Source: a virus
Virus record (IMG/VR): IMGVR_UViG_3300025872_000220
Location: 1-29,615 of that record
DNA: 29,615 bases
Direction: 5' to 3' (one strand)
The notes beneath the pieces were generated by a model. That model saw nothing but the letters and a program-made list of their open reading frames with translations. It had not been told where the DNA came from and made no database searches. Below, piece after piece: positions 2,043 to 28,827 of this stretch; the first letter of the stretch is position 1, and each line of letters begins with the position of its first letter. A program made the translations under genes and the position numbers.

Positions 2043-2726
2043 ATGAACAGACTTTTGCTGGTTTTGCTTTTCCCGTTGTGCCTGTTCGGCCAAACGCGTG
2101 CAGTCATCAATACTGGAACGACTGCAAACGACGGAACCGGAGACTCGCTTCGGACCTTTGGGCTGAAATCAAACACCAACTTTGCGACGTTGTGGGCTTC
2201 GGTCTACACCAACGGAGTCACAAAGATTGGGACTAATATTGTGCTTTCTGGTTCGGGCGTACTTGATGGCAACCTGACCAACAGCTTTGAGCTTGATGAC
2301 ATCAATCAACTGAATCTCGATGGCATCAACACCGACATTGGAGGGGTTCAGACATTGTTCATTGATGGCGGAATCACAACGCTCAGAGGTGTCACAAACC
2401 TCAATTTGATCACGCCTGGAGTCACCGCTGGGACGGTCAGCAACGGATACGTCCTGAGGCTTTCCAACAGCACCGAAGGAACGGTTGAGTTTTCAAACCT
2501 TCCTGGTTCAATAATCACCGGAACGGCAACATTGTCATCCGGCGCGGCAACCGTCACGAACTCAAGCATAACCGCAACCAGTCGAATCTTTTTGACGACT
2601 CAGTCAGTATCTGGCGCTCACGGATATTTGCATGTTATTTCCAGAAGCAACGGAGTAAGCTTTTTGGTCAACAGCAGCAACGGAGGCGACAACTCAACCT
2701 TTGCTTGGATGATTGTCCAACCATGA
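2043..2726 (+). CDS. Tail fibre protein with N-terminal signal peptide
   Basis: A 227-residue protein. Residues 1-20 look like a Sec signal peptide: Arg3, a hydrophobic core (LLLVLLFPLCLFG), then a polar stretch with possible cleavage near QTRA. The next segment, INTGTTANDGTGDSLR followed by NTNFATLW, is a motif I know from many phage tail fibres. The middle is Thr/Asn/Gly-rich with beta-repeat character, and the end (GYLHVISRSNGVSF then FAWMIVQP) matches a common fibre C-terminus. The start lies 8 bases after the terminator, with no strong ribosome binding site. GC content is visibly lower than in the capsid genes, suggesting transfer. A signal peptide on a fibre protein is unusual. The stop overlaps the next start. 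Confidence 0.75.
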   Translation: MNRLLLVLLFPLCLFGQTRAVINTGTTANDGTGDSLRTFGLKSNTNFATLWASVYTNGVTKIGTNIVLSGSGVLDGNLTNSFELDDINQLNLDGINTDIGGVQTLFIDGGITTLRGVTNLNLITPGVTAGTVSNGYVLRLSNSTEGTVEFSNLPGSIITGTATLSSGAATVTNSSITATSRIFLTTQSVSGAHGYLHVISRSNGVSFLVNSSNGGDNSTFAWMIVQP

Positions 2727-3085
2727 GCATGACGACCAAAGGCCAAAGCGTAGATTCAGCAAACCCAATCTACAAAAAGCGCTACGAGGACATCTCGTTT
2801 GCGTTTTCATTTGCCGCGTCTGCTTCAGTAAGCTGGTCTGGATTAATGCTTAAGGGTCAGCTTAGGACGTATGATGACAGGCTGATTTGGGACAGTGGGA
2901 CCGTCTCCGCATCTGTTTCTGGGGACGGATCAGCATCGTCAACAATCACTATTCCTAGCGCAACAACCGGGTTGCTTGACGAGGGCACTTACTACATTGA
3001 CTTCTTTTTTTGGGGTTCGTCGGTAAACAAATCCGCAACCAAGACCTATCTGATTAAACTGGCAGACGGGCCGACTAACCTATGA
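2723..3085 (+). CDS. Small beta-rich fibre/baseplate accessory protein
   Basis: A 120-residue protein starting at the ATG that overlaps the preceding stop (ATGA). The sequence KGQLRTYDDRLIWDSGTV, then alternating Ser/Thr/Ala strands and GLLDEGTYYIDFFF, reads as an Ig-like beta sandwich. This resembles the N-terminal domain of BppU-type upper baseplate proteins, which anchor receptor-binding proteins. In phages this kind of small protein sits with fibre genes, as here. The family call is by eye and moderate. The stop overlaps the following start, so it is translated in a coupled set of four fibre genes. Confidence 0.65.
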   Translation: MSMTTKGQSVDSANPIYKKRYEDISFAFSFAASASVSWSGLMLKGQLRTYDDRLIWDSGTVSASVSGDGSASSTITIPSATTGLLDEGTYYIDFFFWGSSVNKSATKTYLIKLADGPTNL

Positions 3086-3462
3086 GCGACGTAAATGTCA
3101 GCGTGACATACGGCGGTCTCGGGCTGTCTTTTTCTCAATCGCCAGTAACGCTTCCCGTAACAATCCAGACCGTTTCCTCGGTTCAGGATGAGGATTCGAC
3201 ATTGATTGGTTGGGTTGCGTCGGAAGCGTATACACTGACATCAGCAACCCGCGATTCCGACGGCGTGATTACAACCGCCACTGTGTCATGGCCTGACGGT
3301 AGCGCGGGCACGTTCACGCGAACCACGAAGAACGCAACTTTTCTGACTATTGATGCGTATACAGTTACCCATTCCAACAGCGGCAAAACAGCCACCCAGA
3401 CAACTGTAACTAGAGATGCTGAAGGGAATGTAACAGCACAACCCGCAATCACAATCGCATGA
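3082..3462 (+). CDS. Small fibre-associated beta-repeat protein
   Basis: A 126-residue protein overlapping both neighbours by 4 bases. It contains a characteristic run: YTLTSATRDSDGVITTAT, WPDGSAGTFT, DAYTVTHSNSGKTATQ and VTRDAEGNVT. This SxTRDxDGxIxxAxVxWPDG pattern with a following DxYTVTH segment is familiar from phage fibre and adsorption modules, where it probably forms a beta-structured shaft or connector. No enzyme motif is present. It has the lower-GC composition of the 2043-4340 block. Role is inferred from motif and neighbours. Confidence 0.65.
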   Translation: MSDVNVSVTYGGLGLSFSQSPVTLPVTIQTVSSVQDEDSTLIGWVASEAYTLTSATRDSDGVITTATVSWPDGSAGTFTRTTKNATFLTIDAYTVTHSNSGKTATQTTVTRDAEGNVTAQPAITIA

Positions 3463-4340
3463 GCGCACTTTCATCCGCAGTGGATCCAAACGTAAGAACG
3501 GCCATCCGAAAGGATGGAATTGGAAACGGACGCATCAGAACAGAGCTTGCGGCTGGAGAGCTTGTGTTTGTTCCGTGGACATATGCGCAAGATGGTGCGG
3601 GGTTGCTTCCGACCTCGAATCCGTTTGCCGCCATGAACGCGGACAAATCAGGCACATACATTTTCATGGAATCTGTGGCCAATGGATTTGGAACAAACTA
3701 CGGTTTCTCTGGATATTTTCGCGGCAGATCGTTCGGAGTTCGTTTTGACCCATCAACCACGTCAGCGATTAGCCCAAACGTGCATTCTGATTTTGGTGTG
3801 ATGATTGATCGTGTGGGGTATGAAATTCCAAAGCAGGCTTGGAATCCTTATACTCAGGCAAGACAATCAGACCCATCGGGATCTTACGGAGTAGTTGTAA
3901 CGCGAGACCTATGTGATGGACTCCACCATTTTGAGATTGACCATCGCGTCTTTACTTCAAGCGCAAACGCTACATACGTAATGGGGCTTCTCCTTGAAAA
4001 GGCTGCCGGATATAGGGAGCCGCAGAACTTTGCGATACGTTCCAATCCATACGACGTTGCCACCACCAACACTGCAATTGTTGCGTCTGGATTTAGTGGC
4101 GCATTTAGAACGCCACGGGGCATTTTGGAGGCGACATACTATAACACTACAGTGTCTGCAATCACGATCACATGGAGGTTAAACGCTGTCGATTACTACG
4201 TCTTTAGCCTAGCCGCTGGTGAAAGCAGAACATTCCAGTTTACATTGCCCATTGCTGGTAATCATTTTTCGAGCAGTGCAAATTTTTACCTGCACCGCGC
4301 ATCAGCAACAGGAGTGAAATGCACTGTGGTAGGAGTTTGA
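3459..4340 (+). CDS. Probable receptor-binding or fibre-tip protein, family unknown
   Basis: A 293-residue protein overlapping the previous gene by 4 bases and ending 3 bases before the SGNH hydrolase. I do not recognise the family. It is rich in aromatic residues and Gly/Ser/Asn (FGTNYGFSGYFRGRSFGVRF, GLHHFEIDHRVFTSS), with a C-terminal region of alternating hydrophobic residues (ITITWRLNAVDYYVFSLAAG, TFQFTLPIAGNHFSS) suggesting a beta-sandwich such as a carbohydrate-binding or jelly-roll tip. Low GC compared with the capsid block suggests it travelled with the fibre module. Position after three fibre genes and before an esterase-like enzyme supports host binding. Function is inferred from context. 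Confidence 0.6.
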   Translation: MSALSSAVDPNVRTAIRKDGIGNGRIRTELAAGELVFVPWTYAQDGAGLLPTSNPFAAMNADKSGTYIFMESVANGFGTNYGFSGYFRGRSFGVRFDPSTTSAISPNVHSDFGVMIDRVGYEIPKQAWNPYTQARQSDPSGSYGVVVTRDLCDGLHHFEIDHRVFTSSANATYVMGLLLEKAAGYREPQNFAIRSNPYDVATTNTAIVASGFSGAFRTPRGILEATYYNTTVSAITITWRLNAVDYYVFSLAAGESRTFQFTLPIAGNHFSSSANFYLHRASATGVKCTVVGV

Positions 4341-4343
4341 TCT

Positions 4344-5357
4344 ATGGATCCAATTATTTACCCAAAGGTTCGAGCTGTTGCGTTTGGCGACAGCATCACG
4401 CACAATAACACAAACGGTGTCTTGGGAGTCGAGTTTTGGCCAGGCGCTGCCCAGCGTGAAATGCGGACTCAATACGGTCTCGAAACGCTTTTGTTCCGCA
4501 ATCTTGGAGCATCCGGCAACACTTCCACCCAATGCCTAAACCGGATTCATTCCGCGTTTCAGTGGCGCGACGGAGGAAGCGATGAATGGCCGATCTACAA
4601 CGTGCCGGAGATTGCCTTTGTGATGATCGGAGTAAACGACCCCGGAAATAGCATGACGACCGCGACTACGCAGGCTAACATTGAGGCAATCATCCGATGC
4701 CTCCTGAACCGTGTCGAGGGCGTCGTGTCTGCTGAGGGATCTCTGCCAACGGTGGACGCTGGCCAAACCCTGATCCCGATCGGAACCAGATATTGGGTCG
4801 TGGCGGATGGATCGACCACAGGCGGGATTGCTGACGCGGCAATACCGACCTCCTACGGCCAGCCTGCGCGAGTGACTGGGGCAATCGCGTCCGTGAAACC
4901 GGCAGGAGCGACTACCAACGGCGCGGTCTGGATCAAACGCCGACACGCTTCCGGGGCTGCCGGGTGGTCCCGAATCGCGGATGACTACACGCGAGGCGTG
5001 AAGCAGGTCGTCATCATGTCCACCCAATTCCTGCCGACCGAAACGCCAGGATCACCGGACTCAACCAACGCGACGCTTCGCACCGCGCAGCAAGCTGCCG
5101 TGACCGTCTCTCAGGCAATTAGCGGCATCGGGTCAACCCGAGCCAAATACCTGAACCATTGGCAGCAGTTCGCCGATGACGTGACGGCTGGCTATATCGC
5201 CGACATGAATGCTTTGGTCTACACTACAGGCAACCAGCACTACAACGCTGAAGGCCATCGGCAGATCGGCGTTCGGGTTGCCGACTGGCTTAAGACCAAT
5301 GCTGTGCCTGGCGTTACAGCTCAATCAAACTGGGTGGATTACTGGGCCGCGTCGTAG
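4344..5357 (+). CDS. SGNH/GDSL-family hydrolase
   Basis: A 337-residue enzyme of the SGNH esterase/lipase superfamily. Block I is VAFGDSITHN with nucleophile Ser17, block II is NLGASGNT with Gly55, block III is GVNDPGN with Asn98, and block V is QHYNAEGHRQIG with His299. In many family members block V reads DxxH; here the position three before His299 is Gly, so the enzyme may use a Ser-His dyad or another acid. Residues 110-200 form an insertion (LPTVDAGQTLIP) not typical of the minimal fold. The start follows an AGGAG site. Placement beside fibre genes suggests it deacylates host surface polysaccharide, as known for phage-borne SGNH deacetylases; a lysis role is a less likely alternative. 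GC content returns towards the genome level here. Confidence 0.8.
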   Translation: MDPIIYPKVRAVAFGDSITHNNTNGVLGVEFWPGAAQREMRTQYGLETLLFRNLGASGNTSTQCLNRIHSAFQWRDGGSDEWPIYNVPEIAFVMIGVNDPGNSMTTATTQANIEAIIRCLLNRVEGVVSAEGSLPTVDAGQTLIPIGTRYWVVADGSTTGGIADAAIPTSYGQPARVTGAIASVKPAGATTNGAVWIKRRHASGAAGWSRIADDYTRGVKQVVIMSTQFLPTETPGSPDSTNATLRTAQQAAVTVSQAISGIGSTRAKYLNHWQQFADDVTAGYIADMNALVYTTGNQHYNAEGHRQIGVRVADWLKTNAVPGVTAQSNWVDYWAAS

Positions 5358-23872: not shown

Positions 23873-24285
23873 ACCATATTGGTGACGGCAACGAAATGGT
23901 GAGCGACACGCCCAGGACGGATGCGGAGATATTGGAACCCGAGATTGTCCACCAAGACAGTCACTCGGAAGGTTGGGTTTCGATTGACTTCGCCCGCCAA
24001 CTGGAGCGCGAGCTCGATCGGTGCAACAACCTATACCGGAAGCTGGATGTTCACTCGTTGAACCTGAGTGATTTGATCCGCAAGCTGGAGCGCGAGCTTC
24101 AGGAGGCCCAAGAGCGGATTCGACTACTCATCGCCGAGCGGGACAGCGCACGGCAGCGGGCAGACCAGAGCTGGAAGCTGCGGGAGGAGTTCACGGCGCT
24201 TCTCGGGACGGATGATGTGAAGGAAGCGGTGCGTAGGCTTCAGCTGATGAACGAGAAACAGATTTCAACAACACAAACCAAATGA
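23869..24285 (+). CDS. Coiled-coil early protein (SDTPRTDAE family)
   Basis: A 138-residue protein. The N-terminal MVSDTPRTDAEI segment, followed by WVSIDFARQLERELDRCNN, is a pattern I recall from many uncultured phages ('SDTPRTD...vpadFARqLEReL'). The rest is a long coiled coil (LIRKLERELQEAQERIRLLI) continuing to QSWKLREEFTALLG. The function of this family is not known to me. Start at ATG 23869 overlaps the previous stop; an internal ATG at 23896 is possible. Confidence 0.65.
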   Translation: MNHIGDGNEMVSDTPRTDAEILEPEIVHQDSHSEGWVSIDFARQLERELDRCNNLYRKLDVHSLNLSDLIRKLERELQEAQERIRLLIAERDSARQRADQSWKLREEFTALLGTDDVKEAVRRLQLMNEKQISTTQTK

Positions 24286-24833
24286 ACAACACTATGAGTA
24301 TTGAGGAGTTCTGTGGCCTGCACGGTGCGTGTGTTGATGGCCGCAAGTGGGCGTTGGAAAACTGCGTGTCGATGGAGGATGCGTGGGCGAAGCTGAAGCC
24401 TCGGTGGCTGTTATGGGTTGCGACGCGCCCGGGTGTGCTGACGCAGCGCGAGTTAAGGACGTTTGCGGTGTGGTGTGCGCGACAGGTGCAGCATCTGATG
24501 ACTGATCCGCGCAGTGTGGCTGCGTTGGACGTGGCGGAGAGACATGCTGAAGGGTTGGCAACGGATGAGGAGTTGAATGCTGCGTGGGATGCTGCGGGGC
24601 GTGCCTCGTGGGATGCTGCTCGGGCTTCTGCGCGGGCTGCGGCGCTGTCTTCTGCGGATGCTGCGCGGGCTTCTGCATTGGCTGATGCGCGGTATGCTGC
24701 GCGTGCGTCGTGGGATGCTGCACGGGCTGCGGCGCTGGCTCTTGCGCGGGCTGCTGCGGGGGATGCTGCGAAGGATGCACAAGCAGCGTGGATGCGGGCA
24801 AACACGAAGCCGAATTTCGGGAAAACCAAATGA
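24282..24833 (+). CDS. Alanine-rich repeat protein of phages
   Basis: A 183-residue protein. The first 95 residues have a conserved look: EEFCGLHGACVDGRKWALEN, KPRWLLWVATRPGVLTQREL, AVWCARQVQHLMTDPRSVAA. Residues about 100-170 are a degenerate repeat of AWDAA, ASARAAAL, ASWDAARA and similar, nearly all Ala, Arg, Ser and Asp. The repeat would form a long helix or solenoid. Related proteins are common in uncultured phage genomes; some databases label them immunity-like, but I would not transfer that. GCT and GCG codons make the DNA a short-period repeat. It overlaps both neighbours by 4 bases. Confidence 0.7.
   Translation: MNNTMSIEEFCGLHGACVDGRKWALENCVSMEDAWAKLKPRWLLWVATRPGVLTQRELRTFAVWCARQVQHLMTDPRSVAALDVAERHAEGLATDEELNAAWDAAGRASWDAARASARAAALSSADAARASALADARYAARASWDAARAAALALARAAAGDAAKDAQAAWMRANTKPNFGKTK
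24577..24790. repeat. Degenerate short-period repeat encoding the Ala-rich tract
   Basis: Many copies of GGGATGCTGC, GCGGGCTTCTGC and GCGGGCTGCGGCGCTG occur in varied order with a basic period of 3 and longer units of about 15. The stretch is open in five of the six frames, which explains several spurious frames here. Such tracts expand and contract by slippage. Confidence 0.75.
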
Positions 24834-25402
24834 ACATGAGAACACTGATGGCGATGATGGTGGCCTACTCAACGCAGGCCGCGACGGTGGTTCACACCGT
24901 GACGATCAACCCAACGCTGACGGATTGGAGTGCGACCAACCGGGTCCCGCAGTTCGACCAGCGGCTCGGCAAGCTCCGCTCCGTCCAGGTGACGGTGGAT
25001 GGGGCGAGCGAGGCGTTGGCGCGGGTGGTATTCAGCCGGGTGATCCGGCAGCCCGCGTATGAGTTGGCGGTGACCAACACGGCGTCTGTGTCGGCTGGCG
25101 GACTGGTGGCGTCGAGCGTTGTGGTTGGGGTGCACACCGGAGTGGCGGTATCCAACACAACGAATCTGGTGAACTTCCCGGTGGTGTTGGCCGGTGCGGC
25201 GACGACCAATCGCAATCTGTCCGCGTGGATCGGTACTGGCACGGTGCCGGTGGTGACGCAGGCCAGTGCGCGGACGTGGTACAGCGGGCCGGGTGACTAC
25301 ACGTTGGCATGGCGCACGGCAGCGAGCGCGGTGGCCACTGTGGCCTACACGTTCGACGGGAAGTGCGAAGAGGACTCCGACAAGGACAAGGACGGACGAT
25401 GA
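24830..25402 (+). CDS. Exported beta-sandwich protein (choice-of-anchor E-like)
   Basis: A 190-residue protein from ATG 24830 (ATGA overlap); a Cys-rich upstream extension from 24710 is a shadow of the Ala repeat and is rejected. Residues 1-18 (MNMRTLMAMMVAYSTQAA) look like a weak signal peptide. TLTDWSATNRVPQFDQRLGK and LRSVQVTVDG match the opening of choice-of-anchor E proteins, which read 'l.dW...l.lpqFDpsLGtLtsV.v...g'; GTGTVPVVTQASARTW and ATVAYTFDG fit the end. The tail CEEDSDKDKDGR is acidic, with no PEP-CTERM anchor. Such proteins are bacterial exported proteins; finding one among early phage genes suggests a moron gene that alters the host surface. The role is not known. Confidence 0.6.
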   Translation: MNMRTLMAMMVAYSTQAATVVHTVTINPTLTDWSATNRVPQFDQRLGKLRSVQVTVDGASEALARVVFSRVIRQPAYELAVTNTASVSAGGLVASSVVVGVHTGVAVSNTTNLVNFPVVLAGAATTNRNLSAWIGTGTVPVVTQASARTWYSGPGDYTLAWRTAASAVATVAYTFDGKCEEDSDKDKDGR

Positions 25403-25602
25403 GTGCGACCTGTACACACTGCAACGCGCCGATTCAGATCGAGACGGCGACGTTTACCGAGTTCCGATGCGGAGCCGGGTTCTATGCCGAGTCCGGCGAC
25501 CATTGGGAATGCGACGAGGCAACCAGAGCGCAGCGCATCGAGGACAACGATGGGTGGAAGAATGACGCGGAACGTATGGATCGGAAAGGGGTGACGGCGT
25601 GA
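25399..25602 (+). CDS. Small zinc-ribbon-like protein
   Basis: A 67-residue protein starting at ATG 25399, overlapping the previous stop. Cys5-X2-Cys8 (TCTHCNAPI), Cys24 (FRCGAGF) and Cys38 (HWECDEAT) could bind one zinc. The rest is acidic and polar (RIEDNDGWKNDAERMDRK). Similar short zinc proteins are frequent in phage early regions. No specific function is visible. Confidence 0.6.
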   Translation: MSATCTHCNAPIQIETATFTEFRCGAGFYAESGDHWECDEATRAQRIEDNDGWKNDAERMDRKGVTA

Positions 25603-26036
25603 AATCCCTATCCGTTTTTGTGCCAGGGCTACCTGTTGGCCAACCCAGACCTCGCGCAACGTCCTTTGGTGGGCGTGCGCGGATGTACGATCCCGGTACG
25701 TCCAACGAGTGGAAAGCCTGCGTCATCCATGCGGTGCGCGGGAATGCTGGCCTGTTCCCGGCGGGAATCCCGGTGCGGTGTGATCTGACGTTCTTTCTGC
25801 CCCGGCCCAAGGCTCACTACGGGACTGGGAAGAACGCCATCGTGTTGAAGGGATCGGCGCCAACGCGGCCTACCGGGAAACCGGACCGGGACAATCTGGA
25901 GAAAGCCGTGCTCGACGCACTCACGTCCGCCGGGATTTGGCACGATGATTCTCAGGTGACAGATGGGAGGTTGCGCAAGCGGTATGCGATTCTAAACACA
26001 GGATGTGAAATCAGAATCACGGAGGATGTAGAATGA
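25599..26036 (+). CDS. rusA: RusA-type Holliday junction resolvase
   Basis: A 145-residue enzyme, near the usual RusA length. It begins with a strand (SLSVFVPGLPVGQPRPRA) and carries the signature KPDRDNLEKAVLDALTSAG with Asp96 and Asp98, followed by WHDDSQV with Asp116 and Asp117. These acidic residues bind the metal for cutting four-way junctions. The start is GTG overlapping the previous stop. It resolves recombination intermediates made by the RecT-like protein and nuclease before packaging. Confidence 0.9.
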   Translation: MKSLSVFVPGLPVGQPRPRATSFGGRARMYDPGTSNEWKACVIHAVRGNAGLFPAGIPVRCDLTFFLPRPKAHYGTGKNAIVLKGSAPTRPTGKPDRDNLEKAVLDALTSAGIWHDDSQVTDGRLRKRYAILNTGCEIRITEDVE

Positions 26037-26637: not shown

Positions 26638-28827
26638 ATGAGCTACGATCAATTCATTGATACCAAACGCAAAACACACAAGCCGTGCGGATTTGATCCG
26701 GCTCCGTTTATCGTTCCGCTGTTTGACTGGCAGAAAGTGATCGTCACCTGGGCGGTTCGGCTTGGTCGCGCTGCGCTGTTTGAGGATTGCGGCCTTGGAA
26801 AGACTGCGCAGCAGCTTGAATGGGCAAGCCAGGTGTTTAGGAAGACTGGCAAGTCGGTTCTGATCCTCACGCCTCTCGCAGTCGCAGAGCAGACCGTTTC
26901 AGAGGCTTCCAAGTTTGGCGTGCCGTGCTCCTTGGTTGAGTCTGAGGACGAGATCCGGACCGCTGGAGTCTACGTGACCAACTACGAGAAGCTCGACGCC
27001 TTCTCTAGCCACGAGTTTGCCGGGGTTGTTTTGGACGAATCCAGCATCCTGAAATCATTCACCGGGAAGACGCGCAGGCAATTGACTCACCGCTTCTCAT
27101 CAACTCCATATCGGCTTTGCTGCACGGCTACGCCGTCGCCGAACGACTACACGGAGTTAGGCCAGCACGCTGAGTTCCTTGGGGTGTGCACGCCTGCGCA
27201 GATGCTTTGCACGTTCTTCATCAACGACACGTTCAACACCGGGGATTGGAGGCTGAAAAAGCATGCCGAGTCGGAGTTTTGGAAGTGGCTCGCCTCGTGG
27301 GCGGCGTGCGTCGCGAAGCCTTCGGACATTGGATTTAGTGACGACGGATACGACCTGCCAAGGTTGGATCTCAAGACGGTGATGGTTGACGTGGACGAGG
27401 GTAAAGACAGAGGGGAAGACCTGTTCCGAATCGCCACCCTGTCCGCGACAACCATGCACCGGGAAATGCGCCTCACTTCGGACGCAAGGGCATCAGCGGT
27501 TGCGGAAATGGTCAACGGATCCGTCGAGCAGTGGGTTGTATGGTGCAACACCAATGACGAGGCGGACGCCTTAGCCGCAAAGATTCCAGACGCTGTCGAA
27601 GTGCGCGGATCGGACACTGCAAAGGCCAAGCGATCAGCATTGTCGGAGTTCCTGGTTGGATCCGCTCGCGTAATCATCACCAAGCCATCAATCGCAGGCT
27701 TCGGACTCAATTGGCAGCACTGTAAGAACGTCGCATTCGTCGGCCTGTCTTACTCATTTGAGGACTTCTACCAAGCGCTCAGGAGAATATATCGGTTCGG
27801 CCAGAAGCGGGAGGTGAACGCATACATCGTACAAGCGAGGACCGAGGGTGCAATTCTTCGATCCATTCAGACCAAGATGAAGCAACACGCGGATATGCAA
27901 AAGAACATGAAAAATGCAGCTTTGGAACTCAGATTGATCAAGAGCAAGGACGCTCCAGAAAAGACGGACATCGACGTATACAAAGGTGACGGGTGGGAGG
28001 TTCACCACGGGGATTGCGTCAGGGTTGCAAAGACAATCCCTGATGCATCCATCGGGATGGCGGTTTTTTCGCCTCCATTTGCGGACCTGTTCACATACTC
28101 GTCAGACCTTCAGGATATGGGGAACTGCGAGAGCATGGACGAGTTCATGAAGCAGTTCGATTTCCTGATCGCCGAGATCGCCCGGATCATGAAGCCAGGT
28201 CGCGAGGTGTGCGTTCACTGCGTCGACCTGATCTCTACCAAGTGGAAGCATGGGCGCATCGAGCTTCAGGACTTCTCAGGCGCGATCGTGAGAGCTTTCT
28301 GGCGTCACGGCTTTCTGTTCCATTCCCGAATCACGATCTGGAAAAGCCCGGTCACGGAAATGCAGCGCACCAAGGCGCACGGCCTGCTCTACAAGACACT
28401 CTGCGCCGACTCGTCGGATTCACGGGTAGGAGTGCCGGACTACCTACTCGTGTTCCGCGCTCCTGGAGAATGCGAAGAACCGGTCACAAAGGACCGATCC
28501 AAGTACCCGGTCGACTGGTGGCAGGAGGTTGCAAGCCCTGTATGGATGACGGTTGACCAAGGCCGAGTTTTGAACGGCGAGGGCGCAAGGGACCACCGCG
28601 ACGAAAGGCACATCTGCCCGCTTCAACTGGACGTGATTGAAAGGGCTGTTGAGCTTTGGAGCAACCCTGGGGATCTGGTTTACAGTCCGTTTACCGGTAT
28701 CGGCTCCGAGGGATACGGAGCCGTCAAACTTGGAAGGCGATTCATTGGGTCGGAGTTGAAGGAAAGTTACGTGAATCAAGCGGTGGCGAATCTACAAAAC
28801 GCAACGAGCCAGCTGGCATTGTTTTGA
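26638..28827 (+). CDS. SNF2-like helicase fused to a DNA methyltransferase
   Basis: A 729-residue two-domain protein. Residues about 25-440 are an SF2 translocase: Walker A ALFEDCGLGKT (46-56), VLDESS (131-136) instead of DEAH, TATPSPND (163-170), ITKPSIAGFGLNWQHC, and motif VI QALRRIYRFGQKR near 379. Residues about 455-729 are a beta-class methyltransferase: GDCVRVAKTIPD, motif IV SPPF (478-481), then the AdoMet-binding motif I SPFTGIGSEG (683-692). SPPF is typical of N4-cytosine enzymes but also of some N6-adenine ones. No nuclease domain is visible. It probably modifies phage DNA while translocating, protecting it from host restriction. It starts 3 bases after SSB. Confidence 0.88.
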   Translation: MSYDQFIDTKRKTHKPCGFDPAPFIVPLFDWQKVIVTWAVRLGRAALFEDCGLGKTAQQLEWASQVFRKTGKSVLILTPLAVAEQTVSEASKFGVPCSLVESEDEIRTAGVYVTNYEKLDAFSSHEFAGVVLDESSILKSFTGKTRRQLTHRFSSTPYRLCCTATPSPNDYTELGQHAEFLGVCTPAQMLCTFFINDTFNTGDWRLKKHAESEFWKWLASWAACVAKPSDIGFSDDGYDLPRLDLKTVMVDVDEGKDRGEDLFRIATLSATTMHREMRLTSDARASAVAEMVNGSVEQWVVWCNTNDEADALAAKIPDAVEVRGSDTAKAKRSALSEFLVGSARVIITKPSIAGFGLNWQHCKNVAFVGLSYSFEDFYQALRRIYRFGQKREVNAYIVQARTEGAILRSIQTKMKQHADMQKNMKNAALELRLIKSKDAPEKTDIDVYKGDGWEVHHGDCVRVAKTIPDASIGMAVFSPPFADLFTYSSDLQDMGNCESMDEFMKQFDFLIAEIARIMKPGREVCVHCVDLISTKWKHGRIELQDFSGAIVRAFWRHGFLFHSRITIWKSPVTEMQRTKAHGLLYKTLCADSSDSRVGVPDYLLVFRAPGECEEPVTKDRSKYPVDWWQEVASPVWMTVDQGRVLNGEGARDHRDERHICPLQLDVIERAVELWSNPGDLVYSPFTGIGSEGYGAVKLGRRFIGSELKESYVNQAVANLQNATSQLALF

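Follow-up and report, generated by a model that had tools for sequence, protein, structure and literature searches.

Small exported phage lipoproteins are known to act on receptors in the host envelope from the periplasmic side, namely Llp of phage T5, which blocks FhuA, and Rtp45, which blocks LptD (PMC9586334, PMC12685063). Choice-of-anchor domains have also been recorded in phages. These belong to choice-of-anchor A (gp21 of Burkholderia phage phi644-2) and choice-of-anchor D (the cellulase gp095 of phage S6), which follow the same naming scheme as choice-of-anchor E but are different families. One resembles a sequence found just after a tail-fibre ORF and one lies within a glycoside hydrolase (PMC5135824, PMC9544554), and neither was reported as an exported early protein. 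A further mention among the phage papers examined concerns a host gene. Neither the literature searched, which included few subscription journals, nor the named phage records searched yielded a choice-of-anchor E protein from a phage.

The window analysed here comprises the 29,615 bases of an IMG/VR virus record and includes a gene for a choice-of-anchor E-like protein (choice-E), listed with the other features in Table 1. The window encodes a GpA-type TerL, a lambda-type portal and an S49 protease. Among named phages, TerL has distant relatives in Verrucomicrobia phage P8625 (24% identity) and an Akkermansia phage, and the top listed relative of the exonuclease is from another Akkermansia phage. 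These relatives hint at a Verrucomicrobiota host.

Table 1. Features of the choice-E locus and of the tail-fibre region in the window
Feature	Position	Strand	Basis or remark
Tail-fibre/receptor-binding module	2043..5357	+	Type matches choice-E class in four phages
Junction J1 (GATTTCAACAACACAAACCAAATGAAC), here before the Ala-repeat gene	24261..24287	+	Recurrence in relatives
Ala-repeat gene, accessory neighbour upstream	24282..24833	+	phrog_18326, E 4.8e-23
Junction J2 (CCGAATTTCGGGAAAACCAAATGAAC), before the choice-E gene	24810..24835	+	Recurrence in relatives
Choice-of-anchor E-like, probably exported protein gene (190 aa)	24830..25402	+	NF033208; purifying selection overall
Sec signal-peptide-like leader (MNMRTLMAMMVAYSTQA-A), predicted cleavage near residues 17-18	24830..24883	+	Weak h-region
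N-terminal core, conserved (W33, VPQFDxRLG)	24884..25006	+	pN/pS between homologs
Variable middle, class I in the window	25007..25200	+	DNA identity, pN
Conserved C-terminal core (ARTWYSGP...ASAVATVAYTFDG)	25201..25363	+	Alignment A2
Lone invariant Cys179, then unanchored acidic tail CEEDSDKDKDGR	25364..25399	+	Homolog comparison
Small zinc-ribbon-like gene downstream (67 aa)	25399..25602	+	Varies between phages
RusA-like resolvase gene	25599..26036	+	phrog_140, E 4e-33; linked neighbour on two backbones

Kinship to choice-of-anchor E had been proposed in the initial annotation, which made it depend on a profile match or an export signal. The match is present: against a cut-off of 23.8 for NCBIfam NF033208 (choice-of-anchor E), the protein reached 44 bits (E 2.9e-11), with residues 22-175 aligned to profile positions 3-172 of 172, i.e. 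the whole profile. Every homolog tested also matched (seven; 8/8 in alignment A2), and five shuffles and the reversed sequence of the choice-E protein did not. The W...VPQFD...LG pattern described in the initial annotation is invariant across eight homologs (W33, VPQFD at 39-43 and LG at 46-47). Searches of Pfam, PHROGs and PDB sequences with the choice-E protein returned no match. AlphaFold gave all-beta models for both the full protein (pLDDT 49.5) and the trimmed domain (51.9), but their quality was too low to base a fold search on.

The gene is under purifying selection, with dN/dS of 0.23 relative to the 92% identical copy in G001, and overlapping antisense ORFs (e.g. 24869-25417, minus strand) were rejected as genes for this reason. 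Pairwise between homologs, pN was 0.03-0.15 and pS 0.19-0.72 in the N-terminal core, and pN reached 0.30 in the C-terminal core.

The choice-E gene has RecT, exonuclease, RusA, SSB and helicase-methylase genes around it, and we call it early because of this gene content. It overlaps both neighbours by ATGA (24830-24833 and 25399-25402), and RusA starts at 25599 with a GTGA overlap with the preceding gene, which agrees with the tightly coupled operon described in the initial annotation. Promoter and terminator scans did no better than chance level. Upstream, the Ala-repeat gene has a 12-base periodicity and its repeat part varies in length among phages; it is present in 6/10 choice-E-bearing records and missing from G001. 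Across the 67-aa downstream gene, DNA identity in a sliding comparison drops mostly to 0.2-0.5. Judged by eye from its CTHC, the zinc-ribbon label given to this gene is plausible, although no profile matched. Further along, positions 26638-28827 form a single 729-aa ORF in which a helicase and an N6/N4 DNA methylase domain are fused. A tyrosine integrase (PF00589) was found in none of ten records, all of which may be fragments.

Homologs of choice-E were found on 11 other IMG/VR records, nine at 54-92% identity and two cut by contig ends. There was no credible match in INPHARED phages or PLSDB plasmids, and two pattern scans of bacterial genomes yielded no close relatives. A degenerate W-x5-VPQFD-type pattern run over IMG/VR added no homolog, its four other matches being out-of-family frames. 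A TerL related to that of the window is present in G001 (99%), G007 (99%) and G003 (86%); no such TerL was detected in the L013, L015-L017, L019 and L020 records. In the records of L015-L017, the putative terminase is a different one and RusA has a ThyX-like gene next to it (both named by eye), L019 and L020 have yet other gene neighbours, and G002 has only an early cassette of approximately 2.5 kb in common with the window. RusA relatives are 93-96% identical on backbones A and B. The choice-E gene is thus carried by at least four unrelated backbones, though several of the records are fragments. As TerL is different or undetected among these backbones, the gene's function is not bound to a single virion.

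Two sequences recur at the gene boundaries. Both junctions end in AACCAAATGAAC, with the ATGA stop-start overlap inside it, and they represent two upstream variants. Exact copies of AACCAAATGAAC lie at 24276-24287 and 24824-24835 in the window, and the junction recurs at 4588, 5115 and 5594 in L015. The small genes that it precedes are three: choice-E, the Ala-repeat gene and, in L015, a third one. J1 stands before choice-E in G001, G005/G006 and G007, and before another gene in G004; in G001, without an Ala-repeat gene, choice-E follows this first junction type. J2 precedes choice-E also in G002, G003 and G004, and a variant of J2 stands before the Ala-repeat gene in G004. For mosaic phages, comparable sequences at gene boundaries have been proposed. 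From their recurrence, the junctions are likely cassette boundaries where homologous recombination swaps small genes between phages.

The variation within choice-E is concentrated in the middle, defined as residues ~60-125 (alignment columns 60-127). Four deep classes were distinguished: class I (window and G001), class II (G002 and G003), class III (G004 and G007) and class IV (G005/G006 and G008/G009). In the middle, pN is 0.32-0.57 between classes and 0.05-0.10 within them, and a sliding comparison revealed a valley of DNA identity at ~25010-25200, with 0.32-0.67 between classes compared to 0.70-0.98 within. Each allele class is conserved, as within-class dN/dS is 0.15-0.23. The pairs G003/G002 (class II), G007/G004 (class III) and G006/G008 (class IV) each span different backbones, with identities of 0.70-0.97 in the middle, whereas the window and G007, despite their 99% identical TerL proteins, belong to different classes. 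Old alleles have thus been exchanged between phages. Such a pattern fits a protein that bears specificity and acts on the envelope, and the sharing of the gene together with the swapped middles suggests that the envelope concerned is that of a shared host.

In the four phages with the window backbone, a tail-fibre-like protein has a conserved first ~150 residues and differing C-termini, with lengths of 227 aa in the window and G001, 567 aa in G003 and 711 aa in G007. In the window and G001, an SGNH hydrolase module lies two genes after the 227-aa protein. The window protein (2043-2726) has a weak T4 gp9/10-type N-terminal match. Its N-terminus is a Sec leader of textbook form, MNRLLLVLLFPLCLFGQTRA-VINTG, which is odd for a virion fibre and is kept in L142, L143 and L145 despite their different C-termini; L146, from a 51.7-kb record, is a different protein that starts with MKTLLAFLLFPLCLFGQ.

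The choice-E classes split in the same way as the tail modules in these four phages of one backbone, with class I in the window and G001, class II in G003 and class III in G007. A match between class and tail module is what an exclusion role would predict, and the observed match is in line with one, bearing in mind that it amounts to one concordant pair among six (chance approximately 1 in 6) and that this sole pair, window and G001, is also the closest overall. As the leading mechanism we put forward, tentatively, that choice-E acts at the envelope by superinfection exclusion or by masking a receptor. Exclusion of other phages and alteration of the cell surface were both suggested in the initial annotation. 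The beta-rich choice-of-anchor E domain was probably acquired from a bacterial surface protein and is now unanchored. The protein would be made during infection from the recombination/replication operon and routed through Sec by its leader. Once in the periplasm, or outside, the protein would keep its fold through the conserved ends and use the variable middle to bind an envelope component that varies from one host strain to another. By blocking or masking the receptor used by the phage's own tail-fibre module, the protein would cause its allele to be kept matched to that module, with alleles swapped between phages that have common hosts. Further points against this model are the weak leader in the window, the poor structural models, and the lipoprotein nature of the known proteins of this type, as choice-E lacks a lipobox.

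A somewhat unlikely alternative is that choice-E changes the host surface or matrix, through adhesion, aggregation or polysaccharide binding, as may also hold for its bacterial relatives, and excludes nothing, the benefit being the spread or protection of infected cells. Choice-E does belong to a family of exported surface proteins, and PEP-CTERM proteins are a class carrying choice-of-anchor-type domains. The link of a PEP-CTERM gene to floc formation (PMC9850573) also favours this possibility. However, choice-E has no anchor, and a general matrix role does not predict a variable middle paired with tail type.

The C-terminus bears on a further possibility. It ends in DKDKDGR, without a hydrophobic segment or an anchor (PEP-CTERM, LPXTG or other), so choice-E is a member of the domain family rather than an anchored choice-of-anchor protein; the acidic tail without anchor had been recognized in the initial annotation. 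Cys179 is the only cysteine, and one cysteine occupies the same place before the acidic tail in 9/9 homologs checked, two of which are incomplete. The lone conserved Cys followed by a DxDxDG-like acidic tail (25364-25399) might permit a disulfide dimer or calcium binding. A soluble, unanchored protein with an acidic tail could, after secretion or release at lysis, serve as a decoy or shield that binds receptor fragments or rival virions and so spares progeny from debris, and the stated role of exclusion proteins includes preventing adsorption to debris (PMC9586334). We regard this as improbable, as nothing indicates secretion of choice-E beyond the periplasm.

As regards export, the window leader is weak, as initially described, with a best 10-residue hydropathy of ~1.5, and the h-region is weak in most homologs as well. 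Together with the position of the gene among DNA-metabolism genes, this favours a protein that is not exported, either cytoplasmic or part of the virion, with a retained fold and a residual leader. However, the distant L019 homolog has a strong, textbook leader (hydropathy 2.1), MKKLVYVGMVLASAVSA followed by GTVVHTV, with a predicted VSA-G cleavage site. This leader is unrelated to that of the window, yet the mature start after it is nearly identical. Unrelated leaders before one conserved mature start support export, such a swap being expected of a signal peptide, and a positive n-region and small residues ahead of the mature start are found in all homologs. From the comparison of leaders, export is likely and a cytoplasmic or virion location improbable. 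Finally, the repeated junctions would permit passive exchange of a passenger gene without important function, but the low within-class dN/dS and the invariant motifs make this highly improbable.

The exclusion idea can be tested directly through the allele classes and tail modules. If it is correct, a bacterial surface-domain family whose role is unknown would gain a function, and phages would be seen to compete at the envelope of uncultured bacteria via a modular protein whose specificity is readable from sequence. The full version of this proposal is that unrelated phages of one host group use an exported, host-derived, beta-rich scaffold with swappable, tail-matched specificity regions as a soluble system for exclusion or surface masking, typed by allele and spread through cassette junctions; in this complete form we consider it doubtful.

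Compared to the bacterial exported proteins of NF033208, the phage proteins share the full-length domain, above cut-off in all homologs, with a putative leader ahead of it. Full bacterial members are typically anchored (PEP-CTERM, LPXTG or other), the anchor not being part of the domain model, whereas phage choice-E has no anchor, a one-Cys acidic tail, a position among replication genes and deep classes in the middle. Llp of T5, Cor of the T1 family and Rtp45 of phage Rtp, which acts on LptD, resemble choice-E in being small phage proteins that are exported (for choice-E, probably), early (for choice-E, by gene content) and have a proposed envelope target. However, all are lipoproteins, Rtp45 of ~6 kDa, while choice-E belongs to a different sequence family, its exclusion role is putative and its only cysteine is at position 179. 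By analogy with T5 Llp and Rtp45, choice-E may be a small exported phage protein with an envelope target that is built on a different scaffold.
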